Positions 19,997-58,306 of a stretch of 64,000 nt of DNA are shown in pieces. The stretch's first letter is position 1. Each line of letters opens with the position of its first letter. Origin of the DNA: Cloeon dipterum (lineage: Eukaryota; Arthropoda; Insecta; Ephemeroptera; Baetidae); the NCBI RefSeq assembly GCF_949628265.1, contig NC_088789.1, forward strand, positions 7,680,886 through 7,744,885. Reading direction: 5' to 3'. The notes under the pieces are model-generated. The model was given only the letters and a program-made list of their open reading frames with translations, made no database searches and was not told where the DNA came from. Position numbers and translations under genes: made by a program.

Positions 19997-20242
19997 CACA
20001 TGGTGCAGACAAACATGAGTACGGCCCCATATGCCACTGCTCAGTTCCAACAGAACGGCGAGGCCCCGGGTCCTCCGACGACCATCAAGGTGGATACGAC
20101 GGTGCCCAGTAAGGACGCCAGCACGACGCCGACGGGTGGTGGCGGCGGAGGTGGCGTCCAGCTGTCCTCAGGGCAGGTCAGCGGACCCAACTTCTCGCCA
20201 CCGCTGCTGAACGCCAACGGAACTGTCGAGCAACAGACAATG
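19997..20242 (+). CDS. Rbfox: RBFOX exon with start codon
   Basis: Acceptor TTTACAG ends at 19,996 and the ATG is at 20,000. It encodes [16 protein letters not shown] and a Gly-rich run. The PYATAQF block matches the start of the common N-terminal exon of vertebrate RBFOX. Met6 ([11 protein letters not shown]) is an alternative start. It ends in phase 0 before GTGGGC. Confidence 0.85.
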
Positions 20243-23200
20243 GTGGGCGAAAACTTAACTTTTTATCCGCTCTGTTAATGCTGAACTCGGCGGAAAACTT
20301 AATCGTAATTAATTGCCGACAATTTGATTCATTTAACGATCAGAATAGCAAGCAAGCTGTTTTCTCATTTAAGTGGAAGAGCCGATTTTTTCCCCTCCTG
20401 GAAAACTTTTCCAGTGACGCTCATTTATTTCCCGCGCGATCAGCGAAAAACGGCCTTACTTCAAGCTTTTCCCAAATTAAGATAAGCTGTGCAAGAAAAC
20501 TCAAATTAATCTACCTAATTTAGGGGATAATTTATTACTTCATGAGCTGTTGTTTTCGGAGCTCAATCGTTTCCTACACACGCAACTTCTGGACCCAAAA
20601 ATGCACTACGTTTCAACCCCCTTCCCCCAAACATAGATATGCACAGCAGATAGTCAACACAATATATATTTACTTACAAATGTGCTTCAACTCGCCAGCA
20701 GTGCGTGCCGAAACGGGGCCGAAGCGTTCAGACCATTTCGACTGGGAATCCGCGCAACTCTGCAGACTCCCGGCGCGAAACTGATTAACAGATTATTTCC
20801 GTACGCGCCGCTAAATTACTGCATGAGGATTCGCAATATGCAAATTCCGCCAGCAGCCATCATTCTCGCGGACAAAAATCAATCGAGGGAATAAATTAGC
20901 AGTTAGCTCAGTGTGCGACGCGTTGGAGTTTTTCCAAAAGCGACGACCGGCGCGTTTGCTGGTCCTGCGGTGGCTGTTGAAATAATTGGCGCCGCTCGGT
21001 TATCGCGCGCACGAGGGAGAGAAGCTTGTTGCCCTGAACGAAACAGCCGGCTGATATTAATATTTGCTGCCTCGAGTGGTTAATTCGGACTCGACGTACA
21101 TGGCCCATCGTTCGCCCGTGTGTTTTGAATGCATTCCAAATTCTGCCCCGTTTGATGCTTCAACCAGAAGCAGTCGCACTACAAAGGAATGTTAATTTCA
21201 GACTAAGTGCTAGTTTAATGAGTTTGGCGGCCGTATCCGATTTTCAGTGACGCGGAAAAGTCTCATCCGACTCTTTTGGTTTTATTTTCAGGCGCAGAGC
21301 ACTCTTCACGAGCTTCCATCAGGCGGTGTGAGCTTCCAACAAATAAGCTTAGAGGTGAATAAACTTTTCATTCTACGCATTAAAAAAATCTGCCACCAGT
21401 TGAAAAACTGAATGGTTCTAACCCATTACCCAAGTACAGATGAGAGTTGTGTGATGTGACTCATAATGAATCTCAAAAGGGTTAAATCCATCAAATCAGT
21501 ATGGTTTTGACAGCCCTCGTTATTATTAATTATTGACAACAGGACTACCCAAAATAATTAATACCAATCTTAGCCAATCTAGTTGGAAACCGCACTCTGC
21601 GGTGGAGCGACTCTTTTGAGAACTTAAAATTAATTTTCCTCAACAATGACCTCATGCTGAAACAGATGATATCACTGCCGGTGGCAAGTCGCTGACCACT
21701 TTTACGGTTTGTTCCAGAAGCAAATGACTGAGACAGACTCGGAGAGCACAGCTCAATTGACAGTCCAATCCTCAGGCAACCCCCTGCAGGTCAATCCGGC
21801 CACAGTGGCAACTGGTCTCACAGTACCTGGTGGAGTCATTTCTCCAGGAGCAGCCGTCTCGACGTCAGGCGCTCCACCAACAACAGCGGTGGCCACCTTG
21901 GCGGTGGCGGCGGCTGCGGCGGCCGGTGCCATCCCTGACCCCAGCAAGGGACAACCAAAAAGGCTGCACGTCTCAAATATTCCCTTCCGGTTTAGAGATC
22001 CTGATCTTAGAGCCATGTTTGGAGTAAGTATAATTTTTGCATCTCTTTCCCTTCATCTTAAAAATGTTGGATGTATTTTATTAGTTTTCCTGTCAACAAG
22101 TTATCGTGTTTCTATAACATTCGATTGCTGAGTGAAGAAGTGATATTTGGGAGCGTTTCTCAGCTGTCGCTTAGTTTGCAACCAAGGCCGGTCTTGAGTG
22201 AGATAACTTTTCCCATCCCGCTCTTTGGGCCCATGTTGTTCTCTTGAGATAAATTAACGTTCGGCATTGACATTTAACCTCTGGCTGAGCCGATTAGTTT
22301 TACTCAGCTTGAGCAGATGAATATTTTATTGTTTTACTTGTTGCCCTCCGCTCTGATGATGACAAAGCCGTGGAATGCCTCTATTCAGCACAGGCGGCTT
22401 AGGCAAACATTGAATATCAGACCGAGTTTACTCAGTAACCCGATATTTCATTAAGCCCGTCATGTGATTAACTCTCTTTGTCTCTTTTGTTCCAGCAATT
22501 TGGCCAAATCCTGGATGTTGAAATTATATTTAATGAGCGGGGGTCCAAGGTAATGTACCAGATCAGTTTCCTACTTCACTCTGTTACTAACGCCTCGCGG
22601 ACAAGTCGTCCATTTTCAGCCTTTTGATTCGTTTCGCCAGAGCACTGTAATTGAAGCTGAAATTTCCACCATTATTATGTCACTGGCGTGGTTGATTATT
22701 CACCTACCGCGCGCTCCAGCCCATCCGTGTTCCACTCGATAGAGCATTATGTCCGTTTCCTGTGTCGATTCTGATCGCTCGTTCGCTCTACCGCAATCAT
22801 TTCGGCGACTTTCCTTGAAAGCGGCATTTCATTAGACGTACCATTAAAATTTAACAAGATTCGTGCCGGTGCATGTGATTTTGGGCGAGCGCTCGCTAGT
22901 CTGGAGAATCAATTGCACATACTACTTTTTTGGTAGATGTAAAGACGATTATGAAACCAAACGTTGCTGCGGCATGCACGGCTTTCAAGTTGCTGCTTGG
23001 TTTTGATGACAGTCGCGCGCGCGCGCCAAGCAGACTGCAGTGCATTAAAAATTCATGGCGATTTTTAGCGCCGCTCCTCTGGATGCATAATTATTTGCGA
23101 CGACTCCTTTTTTTACAGCCTATTTTGAGATTTCAAGGCGAAAATGGGTCACGTCCAAAGAGCAAGCAAAGGAAAAAGTGCTGCAGAGAACGTCTGTGTA

Positions 23201-26200
23201 AAGAGAAAACATCGCCGTTCAACTCTTTTTGAAGATATTTCTTTAGAACTATCTTCTCGCGAAGCATAAATAAAATAAAAAGAGAGCCATGTGTGCCGCA
23301 GCGGCATCTTTACAGCGAGAAGGAAATGCCGCTACTATTGCTGCTGCTGAATGCTGAGAGAGCAGAATCTTTATTGTGCTAACTCGATTTATTTTCAGCG
23401 GCCTTTCTTGCTGCCTGCAGAATTATATCGTTCCCCTGTTACTTCTGTATACATATACAGCATTATTTATATTTTTCGTGGTTATCTTAACCCTTTCCCC
23501 TTTCGTAAGTGGTTCTGTAATTTTTCTCTCCGTTCTTTTCGCCGAGAGGGAACAAAGAGCGCGAATTTAATCCCAGCAGTCAATACATCTTGTTAATCGC
23601 GACCCCCGGCAGATTAGGATTTCTCTATATCTCTCACGAGTCCATGTATATATTATGGAAGAACAATCAATCCAACATCCTTTTGTGTCGCTCTTCGTAC
23701 GTCTTTACGCCTCGTTTGGTTTCACTTTTAATTTAGTCATTCCTTTTTTGATGCATCAGCTGCATTTTTACAATTTTCATATTTACAATTAGTTCCGCCC
23801 TAATGCACTGTAAACTGCTTCAATTTGGACATACATATTTTATCTCTTTTTGTTTCTCTTTGCCATAATTAATTTCCAAGTCCTAATTTGGTAATTTTAT
23901 CCCGTTTTTATTTCTCTTGGTTCAATAATGAAGACTGCAATGACTGGATTCAGACCTAAATTCTGCTTGTGTATGTGAACATTTCATGTAACCCACAGAT
24001 GCATTCCAATTGGCAGTTAGCAAAGCAGAGTCTGTTTGCCTTTCGTCCTGCGGACGACGTGCCGAATCGATTCCACCTCGGGACAGAGATATTTTTCACG
24101 CGCCGCGCCGAAATGAAGCCACTTTTTGCGTCTTATTTGTTTTGCCGGTCGGCGGCAGCAGCAACGCGTGACGTTGGCCACTCGGCGCGCATTAGAATCC
24201 ATAAATATCTCCGCATGCATTTAATATTGGCATACAGCGCGGGGGGCTTTTACATTTGAATTTCCTTAAAGCGGCTCCTTGGCGTGCTTACCACGTAGCG
24301 AGCAGCACCCATAACTCCTTCGCTCGCTCGTTTGCTTGCAGGCTCCTCCCTCGCGCCAGAGATTTATTCCTTCTGATGCACATCAATTTTTCATAAGCAC
24401 GAAACAGCGGCACCAGAGAGGAGGGAAAAAATTAAAGTGGATTGCAACAAGGGAAAATGGGGCCGTCATTCAGCGCGGGGTCACTGTATAATTTTTTTAA
24501 CCGAGAAAATAATGATGCTCGCTACAAATGCAGGCAGCTGGTGACAATGCGTTTAAAACTAGAAGTAAATATCAGAATTTTCGGAAAAACACAATTTTAT
24601 GTGCCATTTTCTTGTTTTTCTTGTTTTAAATTAAAGACAGCTCATATTATATATTATTCCAAACTAAATTAATTAATATCGTAGGCGGTGCCACGCGCAG
24701 GAGCCATTCTTGAATAATCTGTTTAAAATTTAAGCATTTAATCTCACCGTGTGCCCCATCCATCCGTCCGCTGCCATTTCATTATTTTCTCTGAAGTTAC
24801 GGCCAAAATTAATGGGCACCCTCGTGTTTTGATTTCTTGATTCACGTTCAAACACGGGGCGCGCGCGAAATAGCAGATGTCGATTCGAGCACGTCGGACG
24901 CCGGAAGGGGGGCGAACGATATACGTGTCAGTGCGCTAGTTTAGCGAACCGCTCGCCATGTTAGACATTGTGCTTTACTCGTATGTGATGATTGCACTAA
25001 CATCCCTTCAACAGCGACTTTGCCGCCATTGGATGTTTTTGGACTGGACCTGCCTAATCTCTCATATATATTTTTTCTCTCTTGGCCAATTGAAGGCAAA
25101 GAAATTCGATTTATCAACCTCATACTCATTTCCCCCTGTTGTCAAAACTACTACTACTCTTTGTTTTTAATTTGAGCTCTTTTCTCTCTGACACTGAAAA
25201 GAATTAAGAAATCCACCAGTTTGTTTCCACCATATAGAGTCGAGAAAAAAGATTTTCGTTGCTGTGTGAGCTCTTTGATTCACAAGATCATCCTCCTTTT
25301 TCTAGATGACATTATATATATGGCTATTATATTATATTTCTGTCCACCCAAGTTTTTAATTGTGATATGATTATGTTGTTATGATAATGATTGACCAAGA
25401 AATCGTTGATGATCTGAACATGATTATTAATGCATGTATTTTTCTTGTATCTGTTTCTGCATGCAGGGGTTCGGTTTTGTAACTTTTGCGAGTAGTGCGG
25501 ATGCAGAGAGAGCACGCGAAAAACTTCACGGCACCGTGGTTGAGGGCAGGAAAATTGAGGTGTGCATGGAATTTTTTTATTTTTTAATTTTTCTCTCGCG
25601 CGCGCACAGATCCGTGAGTGCACCTCTTGTTACGCATTGCCGAGTGATTACCAGTCGATACCATTTTACTGATGTTATTGGCTGGTAATACGGAACGTGT
25701 TGCGTAACGACGTATTTGTGCGTGCTGCCATGAACTTGTGTACTACATGGTTTTTACACAACATGTTAGGGCGATCATGATATCCTGCACATAAAAATAT
25801 ATCTCTATATATAATATATACTAGGGTGATATTTATCCATCCAGCTTCTGATTAAAAAAAAAAAAGACGGAAATGAATATCCCCTGCCCTCAAAAATTGA
25901 GCCATAACAAAGACGCCTCCTCCTCGATAAAGCCACAGCAGTTTCAGCACATGTTTCTCTGAGCATGGTGATTTTGCCAGTAATTTCTGTTCATTCACCG
26001 TATTTCTCGAAGTAACTCGTATTGACAGTACGTTCTTTATCTCTGTGAGCAAAGTGGGGTCGCTCTTCGCGGTAGAATTGGATCTCGTCTATGTGTTTGG
26101 TTGGTTAACGACGTGCTTCTTGCTGAACGTTTTTTGGGGATCGCTTGATGATGAGCATGCGGTTGTCTCAAAATTTACGGCCCAAGCAAATAAAAAAGCA

Positions 26201-29200
26201 GACGACTTTCAATGTTGGCAATGGGTAACGTCCACTTTTTTCCAGAGATAAACTGCTTAATATGTGTTTCCTCTCTTTTTCTCTTGTTTGAGATGAGTTA
26301 CGATTCGTATCGTTTAACGCCTCAGTTCGTTTTCAAACAAAATCTCACTCTGCTGTTTGCATTTTCTCATCAGACACACACACGTTCACACACTACCTCT
26401 TACGAATTATAATTTTCGTTTTTCTCCATCTCTACGAGTTCGGTTTGGCACGTGTGTGAGTAACTGCTGTGACTTGTGTTCATTTTGTAAAACACCTCTC
26501 CTCTATACCCTCGCAAATAACATTCCCCCGAGCAATGGTAAGTCTTAATTGTACAGAGTAATCAGTATTGTGGCTGAATCAGAATGAACTCAATGTTACC
26601 CGTTTCTTACCTATACATTGAAAACTACTCCATAGTCGGTCAACTGCGAAAAAGTGCGGCTGTATGAAAAGATAAAGTCAGCATATTCGCTGCCCGGAAC
26701 GCTTCTAGTTAAATGTGATTTTTGCAAAGATCCATCTCCTGCTGCCCCCTCCCTCCCGGAGTTTGCATTCTTACATATTTAGTTGCAAGAACACACGTAT
26801 ACGAATCCACCGCCTTATATATTTATAATCAAGAGTTTTGATTTCAATTTTCAACACCTTCCCTCATGAAAAACCCCGCCTTCGACTCTCTGTCTTTTCC
26901 TGTGATGTCTTCTCCCTCCTCGCTCGACGAACTGAAATTTCAAACACAACAGAGTCGGAACGAATTTAATTATCTAATAATCAATCCTTGCAATATGATG
27001 TTTTTGTGCGTGTGCGGCTGCAGGGTGCGAATGTGCGAGTGCTTGCGGAAAATGGCCTGGATATCCTGTTGTCATTGCCATTTATATTGTGATACCATCT
27101 ATATCGACATAGTGGAAAGAGTTTGTTTGATTATATATCATGTTTGTTAACCCCGAAACATATACATACACACACAGCGCAGGCAATCGAATTGCGAATT
27201 TGTGTAACGACCACAAGCAGCGTGCGCCACCGACGAGTGACCAAAAATGATTGCAACTAATGTCTTCTCTTTCAGGTCGGCGTCGCGTCTCTGCCGTTAT
27301 TTGTTACGTTCTTCTTTTTTGATTGCAAATGTTTCTCTCATGCAAAGCGTGCTACATTTTTTGTTCTCCTTTTGATTTTCTATAGTGCGTCGGGCCGTAG
27401 GTCAAATAAGTCTCTCGAATCTCTCACACTCTGTGGGTGCGGGCAGTTCGTAAAATCTCTCAATCTGTCTCAAGTTATGAAAGACCGCCCAACATAATGA
27501 GGGTCAGGTAAGCGAAAGTGAAGATGACGATGGCATTCCAAAACTTGAAATGATTTTTAATTAAGCAAACGCAACATTTATAAAAGATAATCTCTCTGAA
27601 CTGAATGTGGATAATGATTCAAGCCTGGAACTATAATTCAAGTTTTTTTTATTTAATATGAATTTCACTTGATTTGCCAATTTTGATTGAGTTAATTTTG
27701 GAGCATCTCAGAAACAAGTAATTTTTAAAATCCTTACAAAAACGTGTACGTCCAACAAGAACAAAACAACTCCTCTGCTCCCCGTTATCTCATATCTTAT
27801 GTAAATTTGAGACTCCTTTTTGATGCACCGTGTATTTTAAACACACTAAGGAGATGAGCTGCTTTGTTGACATGATCTATATATAATCATAGCATGTTGA
27901 TTTTTGGATTACTCTGTTCACACCAAGTGCATTATTTTTCCTATTATTTTCATTGCTGGATTAATACTGTTGCTGAAGGTTGGTTTGCTTTGTTGACCAT
28001 GGAAGTGCGAACTGGATTTTTCCATTAATTATCTATGATTTTTTTAATCTTACCACATTAGTTGATTGTCATGAACTCGGAACTGAATTAATCTCACACA
28101 CACCAATTTTGGCCGTCGGCTCGCGCGGCAGACCGATTGACTATGAAACACGCGGTTTGCCGCCCCATTCTTCACTCTAATGCGGACGCGTATTTTCGAG
28201 ACGCTTCTTTTATGAAATGAAAAAAAAAATCGGCAAAAACTGCCCCATTCGACCAATCTCAGGAGCGGACCGAAAGTCGACGCGTTCGCACCCTGCCTTG
28301 TGCAGTTCCTTCAAACTCAGAGTCCCGAATTTTTAGTTTGGGTTTGAGATGTTGACACTTTAATTTCTGCTACCGCTGCGTACTTAGAGAGAACTTAGTG
28401 ACTTAGACGATCTTGGTGCATCCCTGTACTGCAGTTGTTATTACTATCTACACACACTGTGTTGCCTTTCCTCCTACAAAACTTCTGTCTCGCGATCTCT
28501 TTTTATCAGAAAAGCCGCTCGAAACCGCTCCAGACACCTGGAAACTGAACTTTTTGATCGACAAACCGGCTTTCTGGATAAAAATAGTCGTCAGGCGGAA
28601 TGCATCAGTGTTGGTCTGCCGCTCTGCATCATTCTCAGCATCATATATATACATTAAAAATCAAACGCTAATAATTCAAAGTAGGGTTTTGCCTCAAAAA
28701 ACAAACAATGGACACGTGTGTTTTTTATTGTCGTACAACATCCGTTCGCTGAAGCAACAACACACGTTCGCTTATATATCGATCGATTTCGGAAAGTCTC
28801 ACTTAATGTGGAGGGAATCTGGCGCGGGGGCGGGGTTAGAGAGTGTGTGTTCCTTTTTGCGTGCGAACCCGCACCCCGCCGCCCGGCCGCCGCCGGTGCA
28901 TCTTTCTCAGTTTGGAAATGCTGTGTCTAACTTCCTTCATTCATTTGCTCTTCTGCACCCAGCCTGCATCCAGCCTCTTAATTCGGTCGGCTCCCGAGCG
29001 TCGTGCATACTGATTCCAGTATTCACGAATGCGGCGATCTTATCCTCTTTCTCTCTCTCACACAAGTTTGCCAGTCTTATCTCTTTCTCATACATGAATC
29101 ATTTACAAATGGTTGTGTTTTTGTACGGTGTGTGCGATTATCAAGCGCAAGGGAATTCCAAACTGCTGCACGTTCTCTGTCAAGAGCAACCCTAGACTAC

Positions 29201-32200
29201 TTGCTCTGTTTGTGTGCGTGCGAGTGCTGCTCTATCTGTATTAATACTTATTCCATGCCATTGCAATACTGGTGTTGTGCGTGACATGCGTGCGCGTTTG
29301 CCATCAATTGTACCACACTCACTAATGTTGATACTAACTTTTCCGAAGAATTAGGCCCTCCTAATAATAATGTTTCGGACACACGTCCTCGCGCGGCGGC
29401 CCCCGGCTCTCCGCGGGCTTCCGCCACATAATCTCGCTTTAGATGTTGTTGTATCAAGGAGTTTTCTCGTAATCTGAACACCTTTGTTTTTGAAATGCAA
29501 TCATCTATATATAGCTTTTACCAATCCATCAGATGTTCTTCAGCATGCATTTTTAAAGTATATCTCAAACAGCCCGTTCACACAGTATTATATTGTCGAG
29601 CTTTTTGTCGCCAATAACAGGGACGTGGGCTATCGTCCGGCACAGCTCCGGCTCGCAAACAAATCGGACGACCGCCGACGTCCCTTTCAAATAATCATTG
29701 TCAAGCTTTGCGCGAGGAAACCGCTCGCGACCCTCGAGAAGCCACGCGTTTCGGCCCTGGGTCAAAAATATAAGCTTCTGTGGCTAAATGGGGTCGGCCG
29801 CGAGTGGCCTTCCGACGCACTTTCTCTAAAGCTGAAGTGAGCAAGACCTGTGCGTATTCGTACACTTTGGCGGGGCGCGCCCCGAGCTGCTTTTGCCGCT
29901 ACCCTAGGGCTTGAAGGTTTCTGAAGGGTCGAAAACCACAGTGTGCATGCCAGTAATTGAACGTCAGACTACTCTCTCTCTCTCTATGCTAAAAGTCTTC
30001 TAAATAACCTGTGACTATCAGCACGTCCTAAAACTTGCACACAAAACGAAGGAAGTCGACTCAAAAACAACCGATCGTTGCTGTTTTATTTCCAATTTGT
30101 GTTTTTCTCTTTCTCCGTCAAAATTTTCTCTATCTATCTCTATACTGTATTAATATTAATTTTGTTGCCTGTTTTTGTGTTTTGTAGGTGGCTTTGTGTT
30201 ATTACATTCATAAGAATTGACTCCAGTAGATTGAACAAGCTACTGACTCGTGCCTTGAGCCAACACATTACTATAAATCATAGCTTTGGGTATCGTGGAC
30301 GAATTCCCCTCACATTAAAGCGCAAAATCCACTCTGATTATATAACGGAAAACAATAAAATCGTTTGTTTATTCGTGAAAGAAACGAACCGAAAAATAGC
30401 ACTTTAATTTTTGCGTGCGTGTGTGCGTGCGAGTTTGTTTATTCAGTGTTTTACATTGTTAGTCTGCAAGGCTACTTATATACTTTGGATATATCATCAT
30501 GTTGCATGGATATCTTGATTACTTGTATTACTCTGTTCCACATAATCATTTGAATATCAAGCCAAATTATATCTCAGCCAACTGACCAAAAATCACCCCC
30601 CTCAAAATACACTCATACACGACATACACACAGAAATACACATACACACCGGAAAAAATTCTGATATAAAACTCGACGTGTAGTTTCAAAAAGACAAAAC
30701 TATCCACAGTCATTTTTGCTTCCAAACTTTGAGCTCTTCTTCAGTTGTGTTTATCTAATCGCCGTCATCTTTGAAATTTAGGTTAACAACGCAACGGCGA
30801 GGGTGCAAACCAAGAAAGCGCCGGCGGTGCCAAATGGTGAGTTTTCCGCTTTTTATCTCCTCCTTTTCGTAAATATCTGTCACACCCACGTTTCCACAAG
30901 CGAAATTATTATCTCTGTTCAACTCATACATAAGCCATATATTATATATACTGTCCTGACAACTGCAACCAGCACTACACACTTTTGCCTCTTGGAATTT
31001 GATTTCTGAAAGTCTAGTTTTATTACTTCCATTGGCATGAAAGGAAGCAGCTATGTGGTGAAAAAAGAGAACTCAAGGCACACATACCTTCAATACCACG
31101 GCACTTTGGTGCCGATTCTGTGGGCAAAATTATTGATTCCCCCAAAAGAAAAAAATCAAAGTTGATGGGTAAAGAAGGAGCCTACAAGTAGACCTAGTGC
31201 TAGATGAGAATGAATGGTTGTGCTTCCTGAAAAAAAAACTATACGTATTAATCACACAAACTAATCAGCTGATTGGTTAGCGCAAAACGTCGAATTTTGA
31301 TTGTTACTTTGTATTTTAGTTTTTCTCACTAGGAATGGATCAGTCCCTTCTCTGGGTGAGATATCTTGAGCATAGTAACTTCCATTCTCTTTAGTTTCAC
31401 TTGATGTGGGCCATGCAATTTGTTTCTTTGTGTCTCACGACATCACAGTTGTCCATGAAAAAAAATCGTAAAATTCTCTGAATGTGGTAGTGCCTACACA
31501 CAATAAATCATGCTTAGAATTTTAATTCTAAATATTGATCTGCATGCTGCCTACTCTGCACCCATGTGCTTCCGAATATATTTTCATGCAAATACCGTAG
31601 CTTTTTTTTAAAAGCGTTCACGCTTTTTTGACGCTGCGTGCACAGTTTTTTTCTGTAGGCAAATCCCATAATGTGTGGCTCTTGCGCTTCCTGCTCTGTA
31701 CCACCTAGTGCAAACGTTCAAAGTGGAATGCAGATTTTATTTACTTGTTAAGTGGAAATCACACTATAATTCTTGTTCCGATTGACGTTCATTGATTATA
31801 TATCATTACATACATTTGTGTGTATATGTATATATTACTCATCACTTTTTTCACATTGACTGAGGTCAACCTCAGCTCCAACATGTATTTGACTGAAGTA
31901 CTAATTGTTTTTATTTTCCTGCAGTTTGCCTACAATGGCCTGAAGGTTGGTCTATTTCTATATACTAGGATTGCGATTGTTATTTTGGATTGTTTGCCAC
32001 ACACTTGCTTGAATTTGCATGTTAGCTATCATTTCAACTGCCTAATTGTCTTCCTGAGTATATCTTAATATCAGTAGTAAGGGATTGCTCAAAATAATAC
32101 TTTGGAAATTTTAAAAATAATTTTATTTGAGGCTAGTATGGCTCGAATGAAAATTGCTTAGCCAAGAATCAATCTCAAACAAGTAAATTAGATCAACTGA

Positions 32201-35200
32201 AAAGTTTTAGAACTTCAGAAAAAAAGTTCACTAAACCAAAGGTGAAGAGTAGAATTCTTAACCGTGCCTAAATGGTTTGGAAAACTTGGAAATTGAAATA
32301 ATTATTCTGAATAGATTGGTCTTGTGGCATGTTTGGAAATCGAGGGAAATAATATGAAATTTCGTAAAATTTGATTTTTTGTTGCAGCACACCGACCTGA
32401 ATTTACCTCCAATGATTATGGTTAGTTAAAAAATTTTCTGAATTTTCTATCTAGTCAGTTCTCTTGCTTGTTGGAAAAGGAAAGGGTCAGTTGAATACCC
32501 TCATTTTCAAATATGCATTAGTACCGACCTTTCTTCTCGTTAGCTCAGCAATTCTCATACTATATAGGACTTACTCTAACGTCAGTATGAAAATGGTTGT
32601 GTTATTTACTTTTTCACGCGCTAGTAATTAAAAACAAAAAGCATTTTGTAGATTAGAGTTTGCGAATGAATTCCGTGTGGATTATCATAAAAAGAACAGT
32701 ACAATGACATGCATTGCTTGCGCGCAAAGCATTATTATTGAAATAATGAAATCATCACCAGCTGAAATCGATAAAGAACGCGCGGAAATGCCTGCCGATT
32801 TGATTCATTCGCTGATTGTGCATGGTTTGCTGGGCAGAAAGCTGCTGCTGTGCGGCAGGTTGGCTCATTTTGTGCTCTTTGTTGCAGTTGCGGCTCTACG
32901 AGGCGTAGCGATCCAGCGGGGCAGGGTGCGCGGATACCCGGCGGCTGCAGCTGCCGCGGCGGCGGCCGCCTTCGCCAGACATCCGAGTCCCTTCTCGGCG
33001 GCGGCCACTGCACTCCACGGATACACACCGTAAGCGTGCTGCTGCTTCTTTTCCCCATTGTTATTGCTGGCAGGCAGCCGGAAAACTCGCTGCAATATGC
33101 CAATTCGACGGCCCTTATTCCCTTATTGGCAGCGCAGCTCGCTTCACTTGGCTGAATCCTCCTTGCCTGTCGATGATTGTGGCTGCTTTCCCGGCCGCCC
33201 ACTTCTTTTTCCGCTTTGTGTGACTGTGTCGCTCGCTTTTGTGCGGCCAGCCAAGTCTCTGGTGCTCCTTCCCCCTTTTTAAATCAGTTTATCTCAATTT
33301 GCGTGGAAAACTTTACTACTGGCGATGGGCCTGCATTTATTCCAGACTTTTGGGTTCGGAAAATGGACTCTTGCCTATTCATTTACGGATTAATTCTTTG
33401 GGGAGTTTTTTTACCTTTTTATTATTTTTTCATCGTTTGACAATGGAGGCTAAAATTATCTTTCCATCTTTTAGTGTTCATAAATTTTGTGTCACACATT
33501 ATTTCGCTGCTAAAATGTTCATTGCAATCATTCCACTCACGTAATGCGTTAATGCAGACGCCAAATTCGCCCGGACCGCAATTACTCCATAAAAGCGCGA
33601 CGCATTAATAATTGTAGCGCCCGGATTTTTAATTAAATTCTCGAATTGAGCTCGGACGTGTACGTGCGCCGTCGTAAACCGACGGACGGAGAATTAATTT
33701 TTCAAAGCAAACAGATAAAAGTGCTCTGAACAGCTCACGTGCGGCGCGCGTTTCATGCAGAATTATTATATTTTGCGCCGGCACCGGGCGCGCGCGCGAG
33801 CCAGCCAACGAGCCAACTAGAACTAGCGAGAGCAACGGCGTCGTAAAAATTTTAGCTCTGCGGCACGTGGGGCGTAATGTATGCTATTGTTATCGATCTG
33901 ATGAGTGTGTATGTGTGTGTTGCAGAGGTGTCTACTATGACCCCATCCTGGCGGCGCATGCAGCTTCACAGGCCGATCCCAACTACAGGCTTCAGGTACA
34001 TAGCGCTCTTGCGATTGACGCCTTTGCGCCAGCTCATGAATTAATCTCGACGTGCCCCGAATTTTTAACTACTAAAAAAGTGTCCACCAATTTTTCTGTA
34101 TTTCGCTCTCTTTCAACCTGCACCAGCCCGCTGCATTTTTCTCTTTGGCTCTCCGAGTAGCACAGACTCACACTCACAGTCAGTGTGTGGCTCAGAATCA
34201 TTCTCCCGCCCACAATCCCCACCCGATGCATTTTTAGTTGCTCGGCGGGCGCAGGGGTCCCGTAGCTCTCTATCTCAATGAATTTGCATGCCCAAGTACT
34301 TCATTACAAACTTGCTCCTCTGCATGACTAAAACATAATTAAAAACTTCCGCAGAAGTTATTAAGGTATATAAGGTCTCTCTCAGTGAATTAATTTTGAT
34401 TGACTGATTAGTGTTTGGAAACAGTTTTCGTTTTTCTACTTTCTGGGCGCCAAGCTACGCTTTTTGAAAGCAGCCTTGCCTGCTCTTTCGGAAAGTCGTA
34501 AATTGCCGATTGGAAACTGTGGAAAGTATCCCCTGTTTAAGCAGCTCAGGACTTGTTGTATTGTACAAAAACATTATGCACTTTGAGAAATGCTTTGGAA
34601 TGTTTGATATATAACTCTATACTTCGATACAACTTATATATAATTATTGAAATAGTTGCGTTGACGCTGTTGGGTTTGCTTATGGACTTTTCACTCATTG
34701 TAACCAGCTTTGTATTTTCACAGAACCTATTGGAATTTGTACGCTCTCTATATATGATTTTTGTGTTGTTGACATACATACCGATATCTTATTATACATA
34801 TTTGACTGAGATCCGATACTGCAAGTGAGTGCCACTAACTGATTTTCCGCGACAAACACACTCTCGGCACCACCACCTTCTTCTCGTTTCGTGTTTTTTA
34901 CTTACTCTGTGTGTGTTGTGTGTCCATCATACTAGAAGTTATGTACAAGTAAACCCCACCTTCCAGCAAGTAGTTGGTTTACTAGCAGCTTCTGGTTCGA
35001 TGCGCTCTCGGGCCTTCCGACCAAACCTTGGTGAATGAAACGGTGGCTGTAGACAAGTGAGATAAGAAACGAACCGACCGACTCAGGTCCAGTGCATGCT
35101 GTATCACTCGTGGGTCACTCTAATTTAATTAATGCTCTTTAATTTTGGCTGTGTATGCATTTATACTTTTCTCCACTTCTCCAACCAACACCACTACTAC

Positions 35201-38200
35201 TACTGCTGCTCTCTCTTTTTGTTTATCTTATCATTTATGTCCGTCCGTTCCTCGTCGCTGAATGCTCTCTGCCGCCCTCGCTTGTTAAAAAGTCTGCCAT
35301 TGTCGAGGGGCAGTTTACCCTCGGTTCGCGAAACTCGGCGTTGTTTCAATTAAAAGAAGCCCAGTAGCGCGGCAGCATTGTTTCCCTGGCTCGCGGCCCC
35401 TGCAATCTTGACCCCTGAAAAAGTTGTGCTCGCGGCCGGTCGAAGCAATTAAAAGTTTGTTCAGCGAGAAACGCCATTATCTCCTCGTCGTTGAGGGGTA
35501 GCTCGCTGGAACACTTTGTTTGCGAGTCGAATGGGGGTGACAATTGTAATGAGGTGCATTGCACCATCGCGCACAGACCCCGCTCGAGATCTTTCCGCGA
35601 CTTGAGACGGCATAAGTGCTTTTGTGTTTTTCGTAATTGGAGCTTTTGCGGCCACGAGAGGCGGCAACGGCCTTTCTCCCTGAAAAGTCTGCTTGAAAAT
35701 TCATGAATTCACTTAAAACCATTTGAAAAGTGGCTGCTCCTTTACCTCGAGTTTCATTTAACCGTAAAATCTTAATATTCAGCTATTTTAATTTCCTTAA
35801 ACGGACTATCAATGAGAGAGTATTCAGTAGCTTTTGTTCTTTTTTTCTTTTTTTTTAATTTTATCCCTTCAATTTTTATTATAAATCTTTGTGGAAGCGT
35901 CTACAAACTTGCTCTTGTTTTCTGAAAGGGGAATATTTGCAAGGGGCTCTGTTCTCCGCTCGTAAATCGGCCATTTCGCCGCTCTCACTGTTGAAACATC
36001 CGATTCTGCATGCTGAGAAATTTGCTCGCGCATTGTTTGTCGGCTCTTGCTTACCTCTCCTCGTTGCGCCCGCGAACGAGAATTTATCGCACTCGCTAGT
36101 GCCTCCGCTCGGAACTCTAAAATATTCACTTCTCTGCATCCCTTGTGAATTTTCCCTTGCGGAACACTCGCTCTCGCCTTTGTAGACCTTCTTGGTTAAA
36201 CACTCCTGTCATAGTGTAAATTTCTGTTCTTAGCAGTGTAGTTTGCAGCATTTTTCACTAAACACTCACTTTTTGCGCACGTTTTTGACCAACCTCTCTA
36301 ACTTCCCGATAACTTTTTAGTGGATACAACAAACCTCAAATTTATTCTCCTTAACGTACTCCACGAGTCCACTCTATATTTCATTTTGAGATATTAATCG
36401 TGTTTCAAGCAAAGGACAGGAGGTATTCTAGACGTTTTTATGTTTCAGGCTGCTCCAACAACCGACGAGGTAATTAAATACTTCTTTCAAAGTGTTGGTA
36501 TTCTCTTGTAAAATTAAGTTCACTGGCCTGTGCGCATCTTGCCCGAAAAGATGTGCGAAGTGGTTTTGTGAGTATCGTTCGCTCATTTATACACAGAAAA
36601 CAAAGACACCAGTAATATCACATGTGAGGGAGTAGAATAGTATGGATAACTTAAAAGAATATTTTTAGACTGCTTATATCTCTTAAATACTTTGTAACAC
36701 CACCAAATACAAATTAAAAGTACGGTTTACTGATATTGAGCCTCATCGAACGCTGCATTAATATTTGAATCAATTACTCCTTCAGTTATCTACCTATTCA
36801 TTCTTTCATCTAGAGGTAGGATTAATATTGGTGGAATAGTTTGATAACCTCACAAACAAAGTAGATAAAATACATTATTTTTATTATTTTGATGGAACAG
36901 AACGGAAGCAATAGTTTTTGACGCTGAAATAGCTGCGACCGTGAATTCCTAATGTTCCATAATATTCCTGTATTAACACATTTTTTGATAACCGCTCAAG
37001 ATTTTTCCGCTTAGCAGCACGCGATTGCTCGGAATCACACAATCGAGCTCTCTTGCTGTGTTTTTCGCCTTGGAGGTGGAACGTGCAGTAATTTCCACAA
37101 AGAAACAATTTCATGCACACGATGTACTCTTCGTAATGACATCTAAACACAAAGAAAAGTACGCACAATGATGCGACCTCCATACAGGATGGCCTAAGAG
37201 TAAGACGCTAGCATTAAATATACATTTAACTTGACAAGCCAATGCTGATTATTTATTGTTTCACTTCATTCTTTTTCAAATGAAATATTTTCTGCTTATC
37301 TTTTGAAAGGGAAATTACAATTTAGTACATTCACATGAATTAGCATAAATCAGACATGATCAAAGTTTGTAATTCTATTCCCGCATTAGTTTATTTCCAG
37401 ACAGCAATTTTACAAATTCCTCGTTAATCCCCATTTTCATGGTTGCGTAAGCACAATTCCGCAAATTGCAAGTTAGAAACATCTGTTTGAAGGGTAACGC
37501 CGAGCTGTTAGGCCAGCCTGTGTGCATACTTGCGGTCGTAATCACATACTTACATACACTAACTCACAAGTCGACACTGAAACGTTGCATTGCGCACTGC
37601 GAAACTCAGATGATGGTGATGCTGCTCTAACCCATCCGACTGTCTGTGCGAGTGTCATAACTAACCCAAGGAGTGTGGTTGTTGCAAAATGTCGTTTGTC
37701 GCCCCGGAGGCCGGCTGAGACGGAGAACTTTGCTTTCCACCCCGGGCAAAGAAGGAATGAATGACCCGTTTCGGCCGGGGCTGACAGACATTAGCGAGAG
37801 CGCCAACGCCATCCAGAGTTTACTCGCTGCATGATGTGATGATGATGGCCGGCGAATGATGACGGTGGCTGCTGTTCACGCTCCATACATTCTTGCTCAC
37901 TGTCGCCAAAGTATTTCAAGTGCATAGTGTTTTCATCAACGCTCCTCTGACGTGGGCCGCGCGCGTTAATGCGACTGGACAGTAATTGTCACTCACTCGG
38001 ATTGTTTTCTGTGCCGCGCCGGCCCAGTCTTTTGTTCTGTATCGAGCTGGAAATAATTGACTGATTGACTACTGCTATACATACTAATTGGCATGCCGAT
38101 CGACTCTTCTGCACACAGTTTGGGTCTTTTGTCCTTCTCTCTCTTTATTATATTATCTACTACTTGAAACTGCGGTGGGGTTTTAAAAATTCTATGACCA

Positions 38201-41200
38201 TATCTATAGTGCATGCAGAGAATTGCGATCATGTGCACCGGCTGTGTCTCTCTAACCATGCGACCGTGTGTCGTTCATTTGTAAATTATCGCTTGTTTTC
38301 TCGTTCAAGCGTAGTGAAGTTGCTGCGAGGGAGACTACGAATTCTGCATTTTGATCCCAAAGTGCAGATTTCGTGGAATTTCCTGCAGATTTTTCTCAAG
38401 ACTTGTGGTTTAAACTCAAAATTTGCATAATTATATAACCTCATGTAGATTAGCTATTTGTTCTTTTTCTACAGTAGTTTTAGTTTGACTGATCAATCAG
38501 CAGTGTTAATTCATAAATAGTTGCACCTGTTTTTTGTGTTATTTTATATTTTGTTATTGCCATTTTTTGAGAGCTTAACGTTATAGCCCATTTAAATAAG
38601 TCACTCGTTTTCTGCAGGCGTCAGCTACTTTCTATGTTGCCGCGTAGAGTAGCATTGATTTTTCATCCACTTTTTTTCCGCCAACCACAAAGTCATCGTT
38701 CATTATTAGAACGGCGCGATTCCCAATCACAAATAAGCCGGTTTGAAGGGATGAAAGAAAGTCCAGAAGTGGTGGGTGGGTGGTCGGGAGGTCGAAAATT
38801 GGAATTGCAACGCAACGGGCTGTTAAATTGAGATCAGAGTTATTGCTGGCCCGGCCCAAGTGAGCGAACGTGGCCCTTGTGCAGTCGATCTGAAATTATG
38901 AACCGTTGAAACCGTTCAAGTGCACCTCATTGTGCCCGTGATCAAAGAGAAAAGTGAGAGATGGCCGCCATTGCTGCCGCCGCCGCCGCAGCCGCTTCTC
39001 GCACTTTATGGAAATTGCGTCTTTGTTCGCGTCGGCAGCAGCCAAATTTTATTTATTTGCGCGCGCGAAAAATTACCATGAGAAGCGGCGCCCGAGCAGA
39101 AAAATGGCGGCCACCTCTACGTCCCCCCCGTGACTAACACCGCTGCTGCTCGCACCACCCTCGAGCCCCGCGCCACCGCTGCCAGGGCCTAGACCGCGTT
39201 CCACGCGGCCGATTTACCGAGGCTGATGCGAGCAACAATTGTGTAAATAATATGTAAGAGAAGAACAAAATTTATGACTTCTTGGTTTCTTGTTGTTGAC
39301 GAATCGTTCTTTTCTCTGATATTTTTATGTTGCTCGTGTCTGCCTGCCTGCCTTCTGCGTGCTGCCTGTGTGTTCAATGAATTCTCTCCTCTTGGTACCA
39401 CCATATCAAACTCAAAACACAGCAAGCGGCGGCCTTAGCAGCAGCTGCCGCCAGCAACCCGGCGGCGGTGGCCGGCATGGCGGCCTCGGGGCTCAATGCC
39501 CAGGCCGCAGCAGCCGCCGCGGCAGCTCCTCACCTCTCGCTTCTAAAGGCCCCCGCTCTCTCCACTGCCCAACAGGCCTCCTACGCAGCCGCAGCTAGCT
39601 ACACGGCGGCCACTGCGGCCGCCGCCAGGGTGGCCTACGGTGCGGCGGCGGCCGCCGCCGCCCAGCCTGTCGCCGGCTACGCTGCTGTCGCAGGGTGAGT
39701 CTCAACCAATATTAAACTAACTTTAATTTTATAATAATTTCGCCAGCACACGCACAATTCATCGCATCTCTCGTTCCGTTTGTCTGTAAATTCTAGTTAT
39801 TTTGATGGCACCGAAAAAATTGCAACTAACCGATAAAAAAATATCGGAGCATCTTTCAAATTTTTGGTGGATCAAGAACTAGATAAATAAGTTCCCAGTA
39901 CATATGTAGTGACATCATCGCTGTTCAGGGTATCAAAATAAAAGATGCGTCAACTGTTGGAGTAATTGTTGGGCTGCTTTTTTAATTTTCTTCCATCAGT
40001 AAGGAAAGGACCAACTGCTATGGCTAACGAGGTAACGTTTTCTTAGCTGTCGCGATACAGGGTTTGTCTGCAAACACCGGTGGTGATTTAAAAAAAAAAT
40101 GTCAAAGGTGCCTGATTTACAGTTTATTCATCATCAATGTATTTATAATTGTTTTGATGTCATACGGAAAATTATTAAAATGTGCTATTCGATTATTCAA
40201 CATTAAAAATCAGACTGTCGGAAGTCAGAAAGTATAATCAAATCGATTATTTATCGATTCAAAAAACATAGCGGTCCCTTCACAAAGTCTGATAATAATT
40301 ACTATTAATTGTTGTTATTAATAATGTGTCGCAAGTCGCAAAAAATTCAATCAAGGTTTTATTTAATTATAACGTTGTATTGATTAATTGGCATTTGACG
40401 AAATCAACACGTAAATTATTCAAACAGACGAGTGATTTATTTTAATTTTTGTAATTTTCCCTTTTCTTCAAATTGCGCTTATCTTAATTTTATGGCATCC
40501 CCTTAAGGGATGCCATATCGTAAACTTTGCTCTATTAAATAATTTAGGGATGCCTGCTATTGAAGGTACAATAGCTGGCATCCCTAAATTATTTAATAGA
40601 GCAAAGTTTACGATATAATGAATAAAAAATCAATTAATCAAATAAATGCACATCAAACTTCCTCAATATTTTTCAATCTAGACTCGGAATTAAACTGATT
40701 TTCACCGAAGGAATCGTGAGGTTGCAAGTTAAAATTATTGTTGTCCATTATTTATTTATCAAATCTCGTTGCAATTTAAAAATGCCACCAGCGTGCGTCG
40801 CAATCCACTCCGGTGACAATAATCGCGACGTTAAGCCAGCCGTATCTTTCAATCAAAAAATTCCAACTCGGCGTCAATTTCCATGGCATGTTCAAGTTGA
40901 ATTTGCACAGCATAACTAGCGGCCGAGCGAGATGTAATAGGGCACGATAAGCCGCAAGAATAAGTGCAAAATTAGCGGGTCCCACCCAAAATCGTGACCG
41001 GTCGGTGGTAATTGGCGGTCTAAATATAGCCTCGGGTGCTTGATTATCGTCGCTGCAAGCGGCCGTCGGCCGACGGCGCAAGGGAATGCGACCATCTGGG
41101 CCACTTTGATGAGCGCACCGGCCAAATCAGCTCTGGTCATGCAACTTGATAGATACATCATGCGGCGCATCGGCTCTCGGAATAAGTGGAGCTCTATTTA

Positions 41201-44690: not shown

Positions 44691-46110
44691 TACAACAACC
44701 GATTAGTTGATTGCGCCTTCAAAATGAGCATGAGCCACGCATTTAAAACTTGAGTCACTTTCATTTTAAAAACACCTAAAGCTTACTCAACACAATAATA
44801 AGATGTATGTAAAAAATCATCATTATTATTAATTTATTTATTTAATTGATATAATACAATAATGACACTATTCTGTGTCGATCTTAACCTTGTTGGTCAG
44901 CTAAAAAAACAATTATATATATGGCATTGAACTAGTCAGCGACTGTGTCAGCCCCTCGGGCCTCTTCAGCAATATGTACTTTCTCTGCAAAACAAAATCC
45001 TTTAACCACAGAAACAACTGCAGATGATTTTGAAACAGTTAAATATTATGTGGCCTTTGGAGACGATGACCACTCTCGACACTGAGCAAATCAGCACAGC
45101 CAAAAAGAGAAGCAGCTATAAAATCTCATTAAATCTTGCGATAAAATTCAACTTCTCAAGAGAAATGAAGAAATCGTGAAGTGCGTTGAGGGGTTACGCA
45201 TCCATTCTGAGCAGCCAAGTAGGAGCCACTTCAGACGGTTGAGCTATTGACTTTTTGTTAAATAATTTCCATTTTTTTTAATCGGTTATTATTGAGAAAT
45301 TCTGTTTCTCAACGTCACGAAATGTCTAAAATATTTATCTAGTTATTCTCCGTTCAAGATACAATCACATTTACAAAAATAACAAATCAAGATCCAACAC
45401 AATTAATGCTAAGTCACATATTAAAATAGTACAATAATTAAAGTGAAATAAAGTTAATTTAACGTGTGTTAGAACAGGACAATGAATGGAGACTTCATTA
45501 TTTGGCTCTTTGTTAGTTGACATAACCTGTGAAAAGCAACTCCCTTGAAAACATCACAGAAGTAAAAAAATGAATTAACATTTTCGTGTACATCTTTAAA
45601 AGCTGCATCTATCAGAAAGGAAAATATTTTTCAATGCATAATAGGCACAAATTTTACCTTTGTCAATTTTTTCAAAGTTTTGTTTTAATTTTCCGCCCAA
45701 GATAAAATTAAAACTCTCCCATTACTCTTTTATTACCAAAACAAAAAAAATGAAAGAAATTCATTCATAAGAAGTCATTTTATAATAACTAATTATTTTA
45801 AGTTTGATAATGATGTCTTAATGACTTTGTTTAAAATCAATTTGTTTTTCTTCTGAAGACCATCCAAAATTCTTAGCAATTCTATTCGAGTTATTATATA
45901 AAACTCTTATCAACCATGAATCAGATTGGTGATAAGAAGAGAGTTTTTCGACTCTTGTACCCTACACTGTTAGATAATACCAAGAACACGTAATAAATCA
46001 AGAGAATCTAAACTTGAAAATATTTGAGCTCGGAAAATAAGCTAACTTCATTTGTGCTGCGCAGCAGTATATACAGAGATAAACAACTGAACTTGAATAG
46101 GACAAACGGC
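44691..46110. other. AT-rich intergenic region
   Basis: Between the probable RBFOX 3' end and the promoter of the first acyl-CoA synthetase. No gene recognised. Confidence 0.5.
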
Positions 46111-46114
46111 GCTC

Positions 46115-46261
46115 CTTATCAGTCGCGAGAGAGCCTTCGCTTCTAGATATATAAATAAACAAGGCTGCTTGCCTGGACCAAGCGTGGAGAGCACTATTTT
46201 CCAGTTTTCTCTCACACAGTCAACCAGCGGTCGTGTCTTATCGTTGAGGATCGTCTTATCA
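46115..46261 (+). promoter_or_regulatory. Promoter of acyl-CoA synthetase 1: GATA sites and TATA box
   Basis: TATATAAA at 46,148-46,155 is well placed for a start near 46,180, leaving a short 5' UTR before the ATG at 46,328. GATAAG motifs in reverse orientation flank it at 46,115-46,121, 46,237-46,242 and 46,255-46,261; the first and last are full TGATAAG. Confidence 0.5.
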
Positions 46262-46327
46262 ACTCATTTGGCCCTTCACTGCGCGGTCGTGCACCTAAAT
46301 TTCGTCGCACAGTGCCAAATCAGCACG

Positions 46328-49300
46328 ATGTTGACCGCAAGGGCGGCGTTTCCGAGGCTTCTGCGGTGGTCGTCGTCGCTGGCGTACAATCCGAAAAAGT
46401 TCAATGGCATCTACGACCCGAAAACGCACATCGTGCGCTCGCCCTACCAAGGCACCCTGCCCGCTATCAACGCGTGCGACTACGTCTGGAGGGACTACAA
46501 AAAACACGAGTCCGAGCTGGCTTTGGTGACAAATCAAAAAAGATGTGCTCGAACCATTAAGTAATTTTTGGCATGCCGTGCAGACTTGTGCAATTAGCGG
46601 GAAGAGCCTCACTTTCGGCCAGACGCACGGAGCCTTCGACAGGCTGAGCGTGAACCTGCCCGCCAAATTCGGACTCAGGCAGGGCGACGTCGTGGGCCTC
46701 GTGCTGCCCAACATGCCGGAATTTGCAATCGTGTTTTACGGGTGTCTTGCAGCGGGTTTGGTCGTCAGCCCGGCCAATCCTATCTACACGTCAGGTATGA
46801 AATTGCGAATCTGCACCGGTCATCGTGTCCGAATTTGAACAAACGAGATTACAATTCTTGTTCAAGGAAAATTTGGCATATAAGATCAGAAGGTTCTTAT
46901 TTTATTATGTACAAATCTGAATTCAGAGCAAATACGTTGCCTTTTATAGAAGAAATATGTAATTTTACTTTCTTAATTTTTAGATATATTTTATCCTGAC
47001 GAGCATTTAGAAATCTAGAAATCCATTACGATATTATATATTATGTTTTTCCAACTAGCTTAGCGCTTTAAATAATTTATTGAAGCAGTTTAGGCAACCC
47101 AACTCTGATAAAAATTTCTAAAAAGCATTCATAGACGACATCATTTGTTACTTTATTTACTAAACACAATAGTGAGAATTGGGAAGTATATATTAATTTA
47201 AATGTGATCGTTTTTCTTAGCGTTAATCTTTAAAATAAAATGCTTTTTATTTTCGAGGCACTTTCGAATTTGGATCATTTACTCAGTGTAGGAAATTAAA
47301 AATAATTTAATAATTCGTCTGCGCCTCTCATTAATTGTTATGCAATAAAGTATAGCATCAATTACTAGTGAACCTCACTTGAAATCGTTCTAATCAACCA
47401 AACACTGGGAGCTAAACTAAATCATTTTTTAACATTCCTGAAGATCAGAAACCGAATGAAACAAAATTTTCAATGAGCTGAAGGTTTTTCCATCAGATAG
47501 AAACAATTTATTGGAGCTAAGGAAATGACTTGTCCAAAAAAGTCATGAGAAGTAATATTTTCTACTAATATTCTCAATTCCACTAATTCCTCCAAAAACA
47601 TCAAACGTTATCTTACAGAAAAAATAGCCCGTTTGAAGCCGTTAACAGATAAAAATTAAGATTAAGCCCACGAAAATTGTGCACTTTGTTAGAACACTGC
47701 TCTGAAATTGGGTAAACGATCTTCTGACAACGTTACGAAGAAATACGCAAATAAAGTAGTACAATTCCAATATATAAGCTTTCAAACATTTTCTAAGTAA
47801 TCCTAAAAGTCACCTTTTTAGACAATAAAATCATAAAAAGCCTCGATTGCCGTATCATAGCCGCAATTATTGTAATCTTGTTTTTGTTATTAGTACTGAT
47901 AATATCCATAATTTGCAAAGATAATATCCCGCTCAAATTTGCAGAAAAATCCGCCAGGGGTTGAGTTATGCAATCCGCTAGACCGGCCACCAGCGCGGGT
48001 TGCATAATTGCTAAATTTCAGGCATTTTTCTCTTTCCTCTTTCAGATGAGCTGCTGAAGCAGTTCACCGACGCCAAAGTGAGCCTCGTGGTGACCACCCC
48101 TGAGCTGGCTGACCGCGTCAGGGAGGCCCTGAGCAGGATGCCCGGTGGAGGGGCGCCGGTCGTGCTCACCGGCCAGGCTCCACCTGCGGCAGGGGCCAAG
48201 GACACTTTCCTGCTGGACGAGCTGATCACCCAGCAGATTAAGGGCGCCGAAAGGCTGCCAAAACCCGACCCACAGTGCCTGGCGGTGTTGCCCTATTCGA
48301 GCGGCACCACCGGCATGCCCAAGGGGGTGGTCATCAGCCACCGCAACCTGGTGGCAGGACTCTCCATCGGGGACCATCCTGATGCTGTCACGAGCGGTGT
48401 TGAAGGTGGTGGAAGTTGGTTTAGGTTTTTAATTAAATTTCACTCGTGTTAGAATATTTTATTAATTAATTTGATGAATAATTAAAAATCGTTTGAAAAA
48501 TTCATCGTAATATATTTTAATACTATTCACATGTTGTCCATTTAATATTATTTTCTGAGACAAGGTTTTTAATATATTCGGCCCTAAAATCGTATTATTT
48601 TATCTTTAATACCAATTAATGATTATCATTAATCTCAAAGAAATTTTCGACAAAATATTTTATAAGCCCGCAAGCTATTAAATCAAATTTTGTATTTAAA
48701 TTATAATTCTTAAAACATTAAAGTAATTAAAAATGTTTCGCTCTTTCCGTCTCTAATGTTTCCTGTAGGTGTTTATGTAATAAATCAAGTTTTTATGATT
48801 GATTCTTTTCAGATGGGAGAAAAAATTCCACGCTTGCTGTGATTCCATTTTACCACATTTATGGTTCTGTAATCATTCTTGGTTGCTGCATTGGTCGCGG
48901 CTACAGAGTCATAACACTTCCCCGTTTCGACCCCACTACATACTCTCAAGCATTTGAAAAGTACAAGGTAAGTAGACGCAAATGTGAAGGAGCTCAAGTG
49001 AAGCAATTAAATTCTAGCCCACTCATCTGTTTTTGGTTCCCCCGCTGGTGCATTTCATGGCCAGGTCGCCTTCTATTTCGAGAGAAGCGATGCAAAATAT
49101 CAAATTGACAGTTTCGGGCGCTGCTCCTCTTACAAAACAAATCATGGACGAGTTCGTTGCGAAATTGGGACCAACTAGTATATTTAAAACAGGTAAAAAT
49201 TGTGCAAGAGCGTTTTTCGATTTTGTTTGAGAGCTTTGATTTATTGCAGATGCTAAATTTTTTTAATGATGCATTTTCAGGCTACGGAATGACCGAGAGC

Positions 49301-50465
49301 AGCTGCCTGTTAACTGTAATGCCAGAAATAATGCCAACATGCAAGGCGAAATCACTGGGTCCTCCAGGTGTTTTCACCGAGTTTAAAATCGCTGACAACG
49401 AGGGCAACGCACTGCCTCAAGGCCAAGTTGGAGAACTGTGCGCGCGAGGGCCACAGATCATCAGCGGCTACCTCAACAACGAGAAAGTCACCAAGGAGAC
49501 AATCACCGAGGACGGCTGGTTAAAAACCGGTGACGTCGCCTTTTTCGACGAGTACGGACACGTCAACATCGTAGATAGAGTCAAAGAGCTCATCAAAGTC
49601 AAAGGCTATCAGGTTAAAATTGTTTAATTAATTTTATAAATATTTTTTAAACTCTGCTCAGCACATTCCGTGGACTTTCATACCGAGAGGTCTTTAATTG
49701 AAACGGCAGACATTTTTTGTCCCTTTTAAGCCGCTGGAACGGTGCTAAAACCAGAAAGTGGCGAGTCGGCGTCGGTGCCCGTTGCCCGTTGAACTATCTG
49801 AGCATTTCGAGTCACTAAAATAACCACCTTTTGCCATCGGTGACATTGGGCAGCCAGTATTAGATCCCCGAATAGCTCAAATATCTCCCGTTGCTTTGAC
49901 ACTCCTGAGAAAGCCTTTAACAATGCGAGTCAACGGGCTGGCTGTGTCCCTATATGTATTGTGTCCTAAATAAAAAAAATCCAATATTTAGCCTAAATGG
50001 GATGAATATAGAATTTTCACAAATCTTTGAAACATTTTGAAGATATTTAAAAAAAATATTTTAAATTATTTATAGAAAACTAAAACTTTTATCTTTCCAG
50101 CGGGGAGAATATAATATGTTGCTTAAATATTCTTAACCTGACATTATATTTTGAAAAAGAAAATCTGAATTATATAAAATTTTTAATAGGTTTCTCCAAC
50201 CGAAATCGAGTCGATTCTGATTCAGCTGGAAGGAGTTGCGGACGTCGCTGTGATTGGTCTTCCTGACGAAAAGAATGGAGAGCTGCCGAAGGCGTTCATC
50301 GTTAAGAAGCCGGGTGCGCAGATCACCGAACAAACTGTGATGGACTTTTTGAATCCGAAAGTTGCTGAATTCAAGAAACTCAGAGGGGGAGTGCAGTTCC
50401 TAGAAGCAATTCCTCGCAGCGCCGCGGGAAAAATTTTGAGGAAAGACCTTAAATCAAGTGCCTGA
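46328..50465 (+). CDS. Acyl-CoA synthetase 1 (4CL/luciferase-like, probably mitochondrial)
   Basis: An ATP-dependent ligase of the adenylate-forming family that activates a carboxylic acid (medium/long-chain fatty or aryl acid; substrate unknown) to its CoA thioester. Exons 46328-46525, 46584-46794, 48046-48396, 48813-48967, 49018-49192, 49281-49612, 50190-50465 give 565 aa, normal for the family. Motifs in order: P-loop YSSGTTGMPKGV, IPFYHIYG, YGMTE, GWLKTGD, hinge VDRVKELIKVKGYQ, and the catalytic Lys in PRSAAGKILRKDL. The N-terminus MLTARAAFPRLLRWSSS is basic and acid-free, like a mitochondrial presequence. The end KSSA is not a PTS1. ATG 46,328 is the first in frame. Exon 3 could instead end at 48,405 (three more residues). 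AATAAA at 50,468. The N-terminal layout recalls Drosophila pudgy-type enzymes (inference). Confidence 0.93.
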
Positions 50466-50696
50466 GAAATAAAACTTTAATATATTATGAAAGTTTAATA
50501 TTTGTATTTTTCACCCCGACAATTTAAACAATGAAAAGTTCAATACTGTTTTTATCATTTAATTGGCATACATGCACGAGCCAATATTTGTCCTTCATCA
50601 ATATCACTAAGAGCAAATATTTTGAAGCCTGCTGCTGGATGTCGTGGGCAGGTTGCAGGGGGGTATTATCTGCGTGATTTGATTTTCAGTCGGGGC

Positions 50697-50703
50697 TGAT
50701 AAG
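50697..50703 (+). promoter_or_regulatory. GATA motif upstream of acyl-CoA synthetase 2
   Basis: TGATAAG 44 nt before the start codon, in a promoter region only about 280 bp long between the stop of copy 1 and the start of copy 2. No TATA box seen. Confidence 0.35.
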
Positions 50704-50746
50704 GCGAGAAGCTACTCAATAGAGTGTTGATCGCTTCATTCTCAAA

Positions 50747-54696: not shown

Positions 54697-54702
54697 TTTG
54701 CA

Positions 54703-58191: not shown

Positions 58192-58306
58192 ATCTCATCC
58201 TGAAATAAACTAGGCGGTCATTGCGGTCGCTTCTTGTGTGCATTTGTCATTTCCGTTTGTGCGACAGCTTAAGACACACTACATAAGTCTTATTTATTCG
58301 GACGTA

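Follow-up and report, generated by a model that had tools for sequence, protein, structure and literature searches.

Three sense copies of the hexamer TGCATG lie within −36..+9 of the RRM exon of a predicted RBFOX gene in Cloeon dipterum, one of them inside the acceptor and another inside the donor. It is the position of the hexamers at this exon, not their number, that stands out, and it does so well beyond chance. The best explanation, and in our view a probable one, is a conserved, self-repressed RRM cassette exon whose RBFOX-driven skipping would give a dominant-negative protein. All coordinates given here are those of the 64-kb stretch of genomic DNA that was analysed as a whole, which is referred to as the window.

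The RBFOX gene and its RRM exon

The exons of the gene on which the argument turns are the following:

21670..22023, + strand, RBFOX exon whose 3′ end codes for the first part of the RRM (from an RRM match; its start is approximate, and its end and donor GTAAGT were set by eye)
22496..22549, + strand, RBFOX exon of 54 nt, upstream partner of the skip junction
25467..25559, + strand, RRM exon of 93 nt in phase 0, a predicted cassette exon
30782..30836, + strand, RBFOX exon of 55 nt, downstream partner of the skip junction

An RRM of 83 residues was assembled over four exons and matched human RBFOX1 (4zka, 4.5e-47) as well as ASD-1 of C. elegans (7.6e-33), with 76 of the 83 residues identical to those of the human RBFOX1 chain. 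A Pfam profile scan returned a match to RRM_1 (E 8.4e-9); a fragment holding only the beginning of the RRM gave no RRM match in the same scan. With an RRM that closely matches those of RBFOX proteins, the gene can be assigned, on sequence similarity, to an arthropod-like RBFOX. The 190-Mb genome contained 18 RRM-like matches, three of which were the RBFOX locus itself. Since the 15 matches elsewhere were all 44% identical or less, the RBFOX gene appears to be single-copy in this genome.

The exon at 25467-25559 codes for the second half of the RRM, and in its length of 93 nt and its phase 0 it corresponds to the autoregulated RBFOX exon. The junction from 22549 to 30782 that would result from its skipping is in frame and free of stops, and removes 31 residues of the RRM.

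Several other features were observed in the window and the genome. An alanine-rich exon at about 39420-39694 (start approximate, donor GTGAGT) is likely to be part of the C-terminal low-complexity region of RBFOX. When the list of open reading frames was inspected by eye, those at 46097-58103 and 62302-63672 resembled tandem acyl-CoA synthetase (4CL/luciferase-like) genes of several exons each, and those at 58214-60895 a methuselah-type seven-helix receptor gene. About 187 of the 190 Mb of the genome lay in five contigs of 33-43 Mb, and (TTAGG)6 found no match in it.

TGCATG at both splice sites of the RRM exon

The three hexamers are placed as follows:

25431..25436, + strand, TGCATG starting 36 nt upstream of the RRM exon
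25458..25463, + strand, TGCATG inside the acceptor, at −9 to −4, within TTTCTGCATGCAG
25560..25568, + strand, donor GTGTGCATG, in which the TGCATG at 25563-25568 begins at intron position +4

With the exon border marked by a slash, the acceptor reads CTGTTTCTGCATGCAG/GGGTTC (in short form TTTCTGCATGCAG/GGG) and the donor AAAATTGAG/GTGTGCATGG (in short form GAG/GTGTGCATGG). The original prediction had located TGCATG on the + strand at exactly these three positions, and had described the exon as a phase-0, 93-nt exon of the RBFOX RRM that encodes RNP1. Both descriptions were confirmed, with the qualification that the first residue of RNP1 (K) comes from the previous exon.

TGCATG was not enriched in the 64-kb window (47 observed against 46.4 expected), and its core GCATG was found less often than expected (107 against 143.5). 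A gene-wide enrichment of TGCATG was considered and judged unconvincing, there being only a slight sense excess of 16 against 12 antisense copies in the gene (19997-39694), compared with 8 against 11 elsewhere in the window.

Such ordinary frequencies would suit a constitutive exon that carries TGCATG words by accident, but the placement of the words makes this reading highly improbable. When the 144-nt flanks of the exon were dinucleotide-shuffled 20,000 times, a hexamer started within the last 20 nt of the intron 424 times and at the donor 210 times, and at both edges only once; none of the 20,000 flank shuffles held three or more hexamers within about −40..+13. Decoy splice sites taken from 264 kb of sequence on both strands agreed with this, with TGCATG in the last 20 nt of one of 905 acceptors and in the first 14 nt of one of 1,407 donors. 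The decoy set was composed of the window and twenty control stretches, with the finding itself masked on the + strand only. The hexamer was absent from the other four fixed donors and the other two fixed acceptors of the RBFOX gene; these six sites, the decoys and the shuffles take the place of a proven splice-site set for the whole genome. The exon was, moreover, a single candidate that mammalian knowledge had fixed beforehand.

Accidental occurrences of the arrangement do exist. The strict two-sided pattern TGCATGCAG-N79..109-GTNTGCATG was found in at least six places genome-wide, compared with at least two and at least zero places for two control words, all of these counts being lower bounds. 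Reversed-pattern controls gave no matches, yet they are poor controls since they contain CpG. A good polypyrimidine tract was present in only one of the six places listed, the RBFOX exon (16 of 20 positions Y, compared with 7 to 12 in the others). The remaining places, at least five in number, thus fit the strict pattern without a good tract, which is a point in favour of accident. As candidates for further RBFOX targets the five were rejected as most likely chance occurrences, three of them having no open frame and two having open frames. TGCATG therefore lies at both splice sites of the RRM exon beyond what chance would place there.

For the favoured reading, self-repression of the exon, we propose that three UGCAUG sites of the RBFOX pre-mRNA would be bound by nuclear RBFOX itself, one at −36, one across −9 to −4 of the acceptor and one across +4 to +9 of the donor. 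At the 3′ splice site the protein would then compete with U2AF, and at the rather weak 5′ splice site its rival would be U1. As a consequence of this proposed competition the 54-nt exon would be joined to the 55-nt exon, and the skipped, in-frame mRNA would encode a protein missing 31 residues of the RRM. This delta-RRM protein should lose RNA binding, yet should remain a competitor of the full-length form.

We consider autoregulatory skipping the most likely reading because, according to PMC3126832, the equivalent exon of Rbfox2 is skipped when Rbfox3 is expressed in mammals, in frame and with a dominant-negative product. The same effect of Rbfox3 on the mammalian Rbfox2 RRM exon is covered in the review PMC11380049, and a −93 isoform of Rbfox2 from rat cortex is mentioned in PMC5577181. 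By analogy with these systems we infer binding, skipping and dominant-negative action in Cloeon dipterum; direct occlusion of the splice sites is the least certain step of this explanation.

The donor hexamer spans +4 to +9 and so overlaps bases +4 to +6, which pair with U1. The U1 duplex of the donor GTGTGC (−5.3 kcal/mol) was, by a small margin, the weakest among the five donors of the gene, the other four having values of −5.9, −6.6, −8.7 and −9.6. With flanks of 60, 100 and 150 nt the donor hexamer was predicted to be unpaired at 0.36, 0.65 and 0.58, respectively, and is thus fairly accessible. A weak donor with an accessible hexamer would also suit mixed control, in which the upstream and acceptor hexamers repress while the hexamer at +4 helps U1, so that the level of RBFOX tunes inclusion both ways. 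PMC5577181 and PMC8559713 associate RBFOX sites upstream of an exon with skipping and downstream ones usually with enhanced inclusion. According to PMC13158602, RbFox binding at the weak 5′ splice site of an exon raises its inclusion, which counts against a simple repression rule; the motif proposed there is GUGACU, not UGCAUG. We nevertheless consider mixed control unlikely, as joint binding of RBFOX and U1 would not be easy where the +4 hexamer overlaps the U1-pairing bases, and as RBFOX represses the equivalent mammalian exon (PMC3126832).

A predicted hairpin over the acceptor

The upstream hexamers fall within a structure that was recognised in the predicted fold of the region:

25432..25517, + strand, predicted hairpin in which the first half of the exon pairs with the acceptor and the polypyrimidine tract, containing both upstream hexamers

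One arm of the hairpin (25432-25473) holds the polypyrimidine tract, the acceptor and both hexamers, and is predicted to pair with 25478-25517 of the exon. None of 200 shuffles was as stable as the hairpin (z −5.47), and when 398 regions of 201 nt were drawn at random from the window, 149 had a comparable domain and a single one was as extreme. At neither of the other two acceptors fixed for the RBFOX gene was anything of this kind seen (z 1.5 and 0.05). Equal stability was reached by one of 2,000 versions of the exon with random synonymous codons, and by one of 2,000 in which the intron part had been mononucleotide-shuffled. The acceptor hexamer was predicted to be unpaired at only 0.17, the second to third lowest value among 24 sense hexamers.

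These values could be taken to mean that RNA structure is the main regulator of the exon, with the acceptor fold hiding the 3′ splice site and the RBFOX sites being secondary or acting by changing the fold. The same analyses make this distinctly unlikely, as does the presence of three RBFOX words exactly at the RBFOX exon, which structure alone would leave unexplained. When the intron part was dinucleotide-shuffled instead, 22 of 2,000 versions matched its stability (z −2.59), a z value also attained by at least 6 of the 211 decoy acceptors. The whole region of 201 nt (25417-25617) was only moderately more stable than its shuffles (z −2.08, 5 of 200), and the donor hairpin was ordinary (z −0.47). 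Direct pairing of the acceptor with the donor gave a duplex of −12.8 kcal/mol, a value computed without a control and left out of account. Since the acceptor hairpin was noticed post hoc, with its borders taken from the fold, we treat the evidence for it as suggestive.

For self-repression of the exon the hairpin would nonetheless have consequences. The switch had originally been thought to be very direct, which is less certain now that a stable hairpin is predicted over both upstream hexamers. If real, the hairpin would weaken the case for simple binding at the acceptor and point instead to a structural layer, and RBFOX would need it to be open; it may thus act as a second layer of control. 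One could picture a self-switch of two layers, in which the stem-loop folds the polypyrimidine tract, the acceptor and both upstream sites onto the exon, RBFOX works with or against this fold, and the third site lies on the donor. We put this forward tentatively, as possible but doubtful.

Hairpins were also observed elsewhere in the RBFOX region. Two of these were single-copy and resembled miRNA precursors, one located 67 nt inside the intron that follows the RRM exon (25627-25710; z −5.81, with none of 200 shuffles as stable, for 25620-25715) and the other in the later part of the region (38323-38388; z −7.08, none of 200, for 38315-38395). A weaker hairpin (25822-25886; z −3.43, none of 200, for 25815-25892) shares the intron of the first. 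No Rfam family matched the window at gathering score, including the hairpins at 25627-25710 and 38323-38388; five weak Rfam matches in 24800-26600 (E 1.3 to 7.6) all lay far below it.

Relation to known RBFOX feedback

The loop proposed here has a close precedent. Damianov and Black (RNA 16:405), who are cited in PMC3126832, reportedly described in 2010 an autoregulated 93-nt RRM exon in mammalian RBFOX1, RBFOX2 and RBFOX3, which is the same loop. Their abstract reportedly also places Fox elements across both splice sites of the RRM exon of Fox-1 and of Fox-2, and Fox sites on the flanks of the Drosophila exon. The original prediction had set the gene apart from its vertebrate counterparts by the overlap of its sites with the splice sites themselves, a contrast that finds no support when the same overlap is reported for Fox-1 and Fox-2. 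If so, neither the overlap nor the occurrence in arthropods is new. The antiquity of the loop in arthropods, offered originally as a new idea, had likewise been anticipated, as PMC3126832 already states that Rbfox1 and Rbfox3 share this alternative exon, as does the homolog in Drosophila. As a system the feedback loop is thus not novel, since it is already known from mammals and has been noted for the fruit fly.

Comparison with these systems brings out what is shared and what is particular to Cloeon dipterum. The RRM exon has in common with that of mammalian RBFOX1/2/3 the gene family, the exon length, the phase, the half of the RRM that is encoded and the in-frame skip; unlike in mammals, there is apparently one RBFOX gene here and so no cross-regulation between paralogs. 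It is also like Drosophila Rbfox1/A2bp1 in having an equivalent alternatively spliced exon, as stated in PMC3126832; passages from two papers on Drosophila Rbfox1 (PMC8742874 and PMC5778076) do not discuss the RRM exon. The NMD exons 5* and 6* of Rbfox2, described in PMC3126832, provide another negative feedback within that region of the gene. They differ in causing a frame shift and decay, whereas skipping of the RRM exon here would keep the frame. In a pattern search for relatives, genome contigs that include no other eukaryote gave at least 171 stretches, with a single RRM, from Parabacteroides, that was 36% identical; viral contigs gave at least 17 stretches, with neither a relative nor an RBFOX locus among them.

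The RRM exon of Cloeon dipterum would represent a case from a non-model insect of a loop whose workings were established in mammals, and it agrees with the loop predating the split between arthropods and vertebrates, as Drosophila had already suggested. Because RBFOX is apparently single-copy here, self-control could be probed directly, in a setting without paralogs, by altering both splice-site hexamers, while the hairpin predicted at the acceptor offers a further layer open to testing. If the splice-site hexamers and the fold both prove to be ancient, this switch would be among the oldest traceable structured splicing feedback switches.
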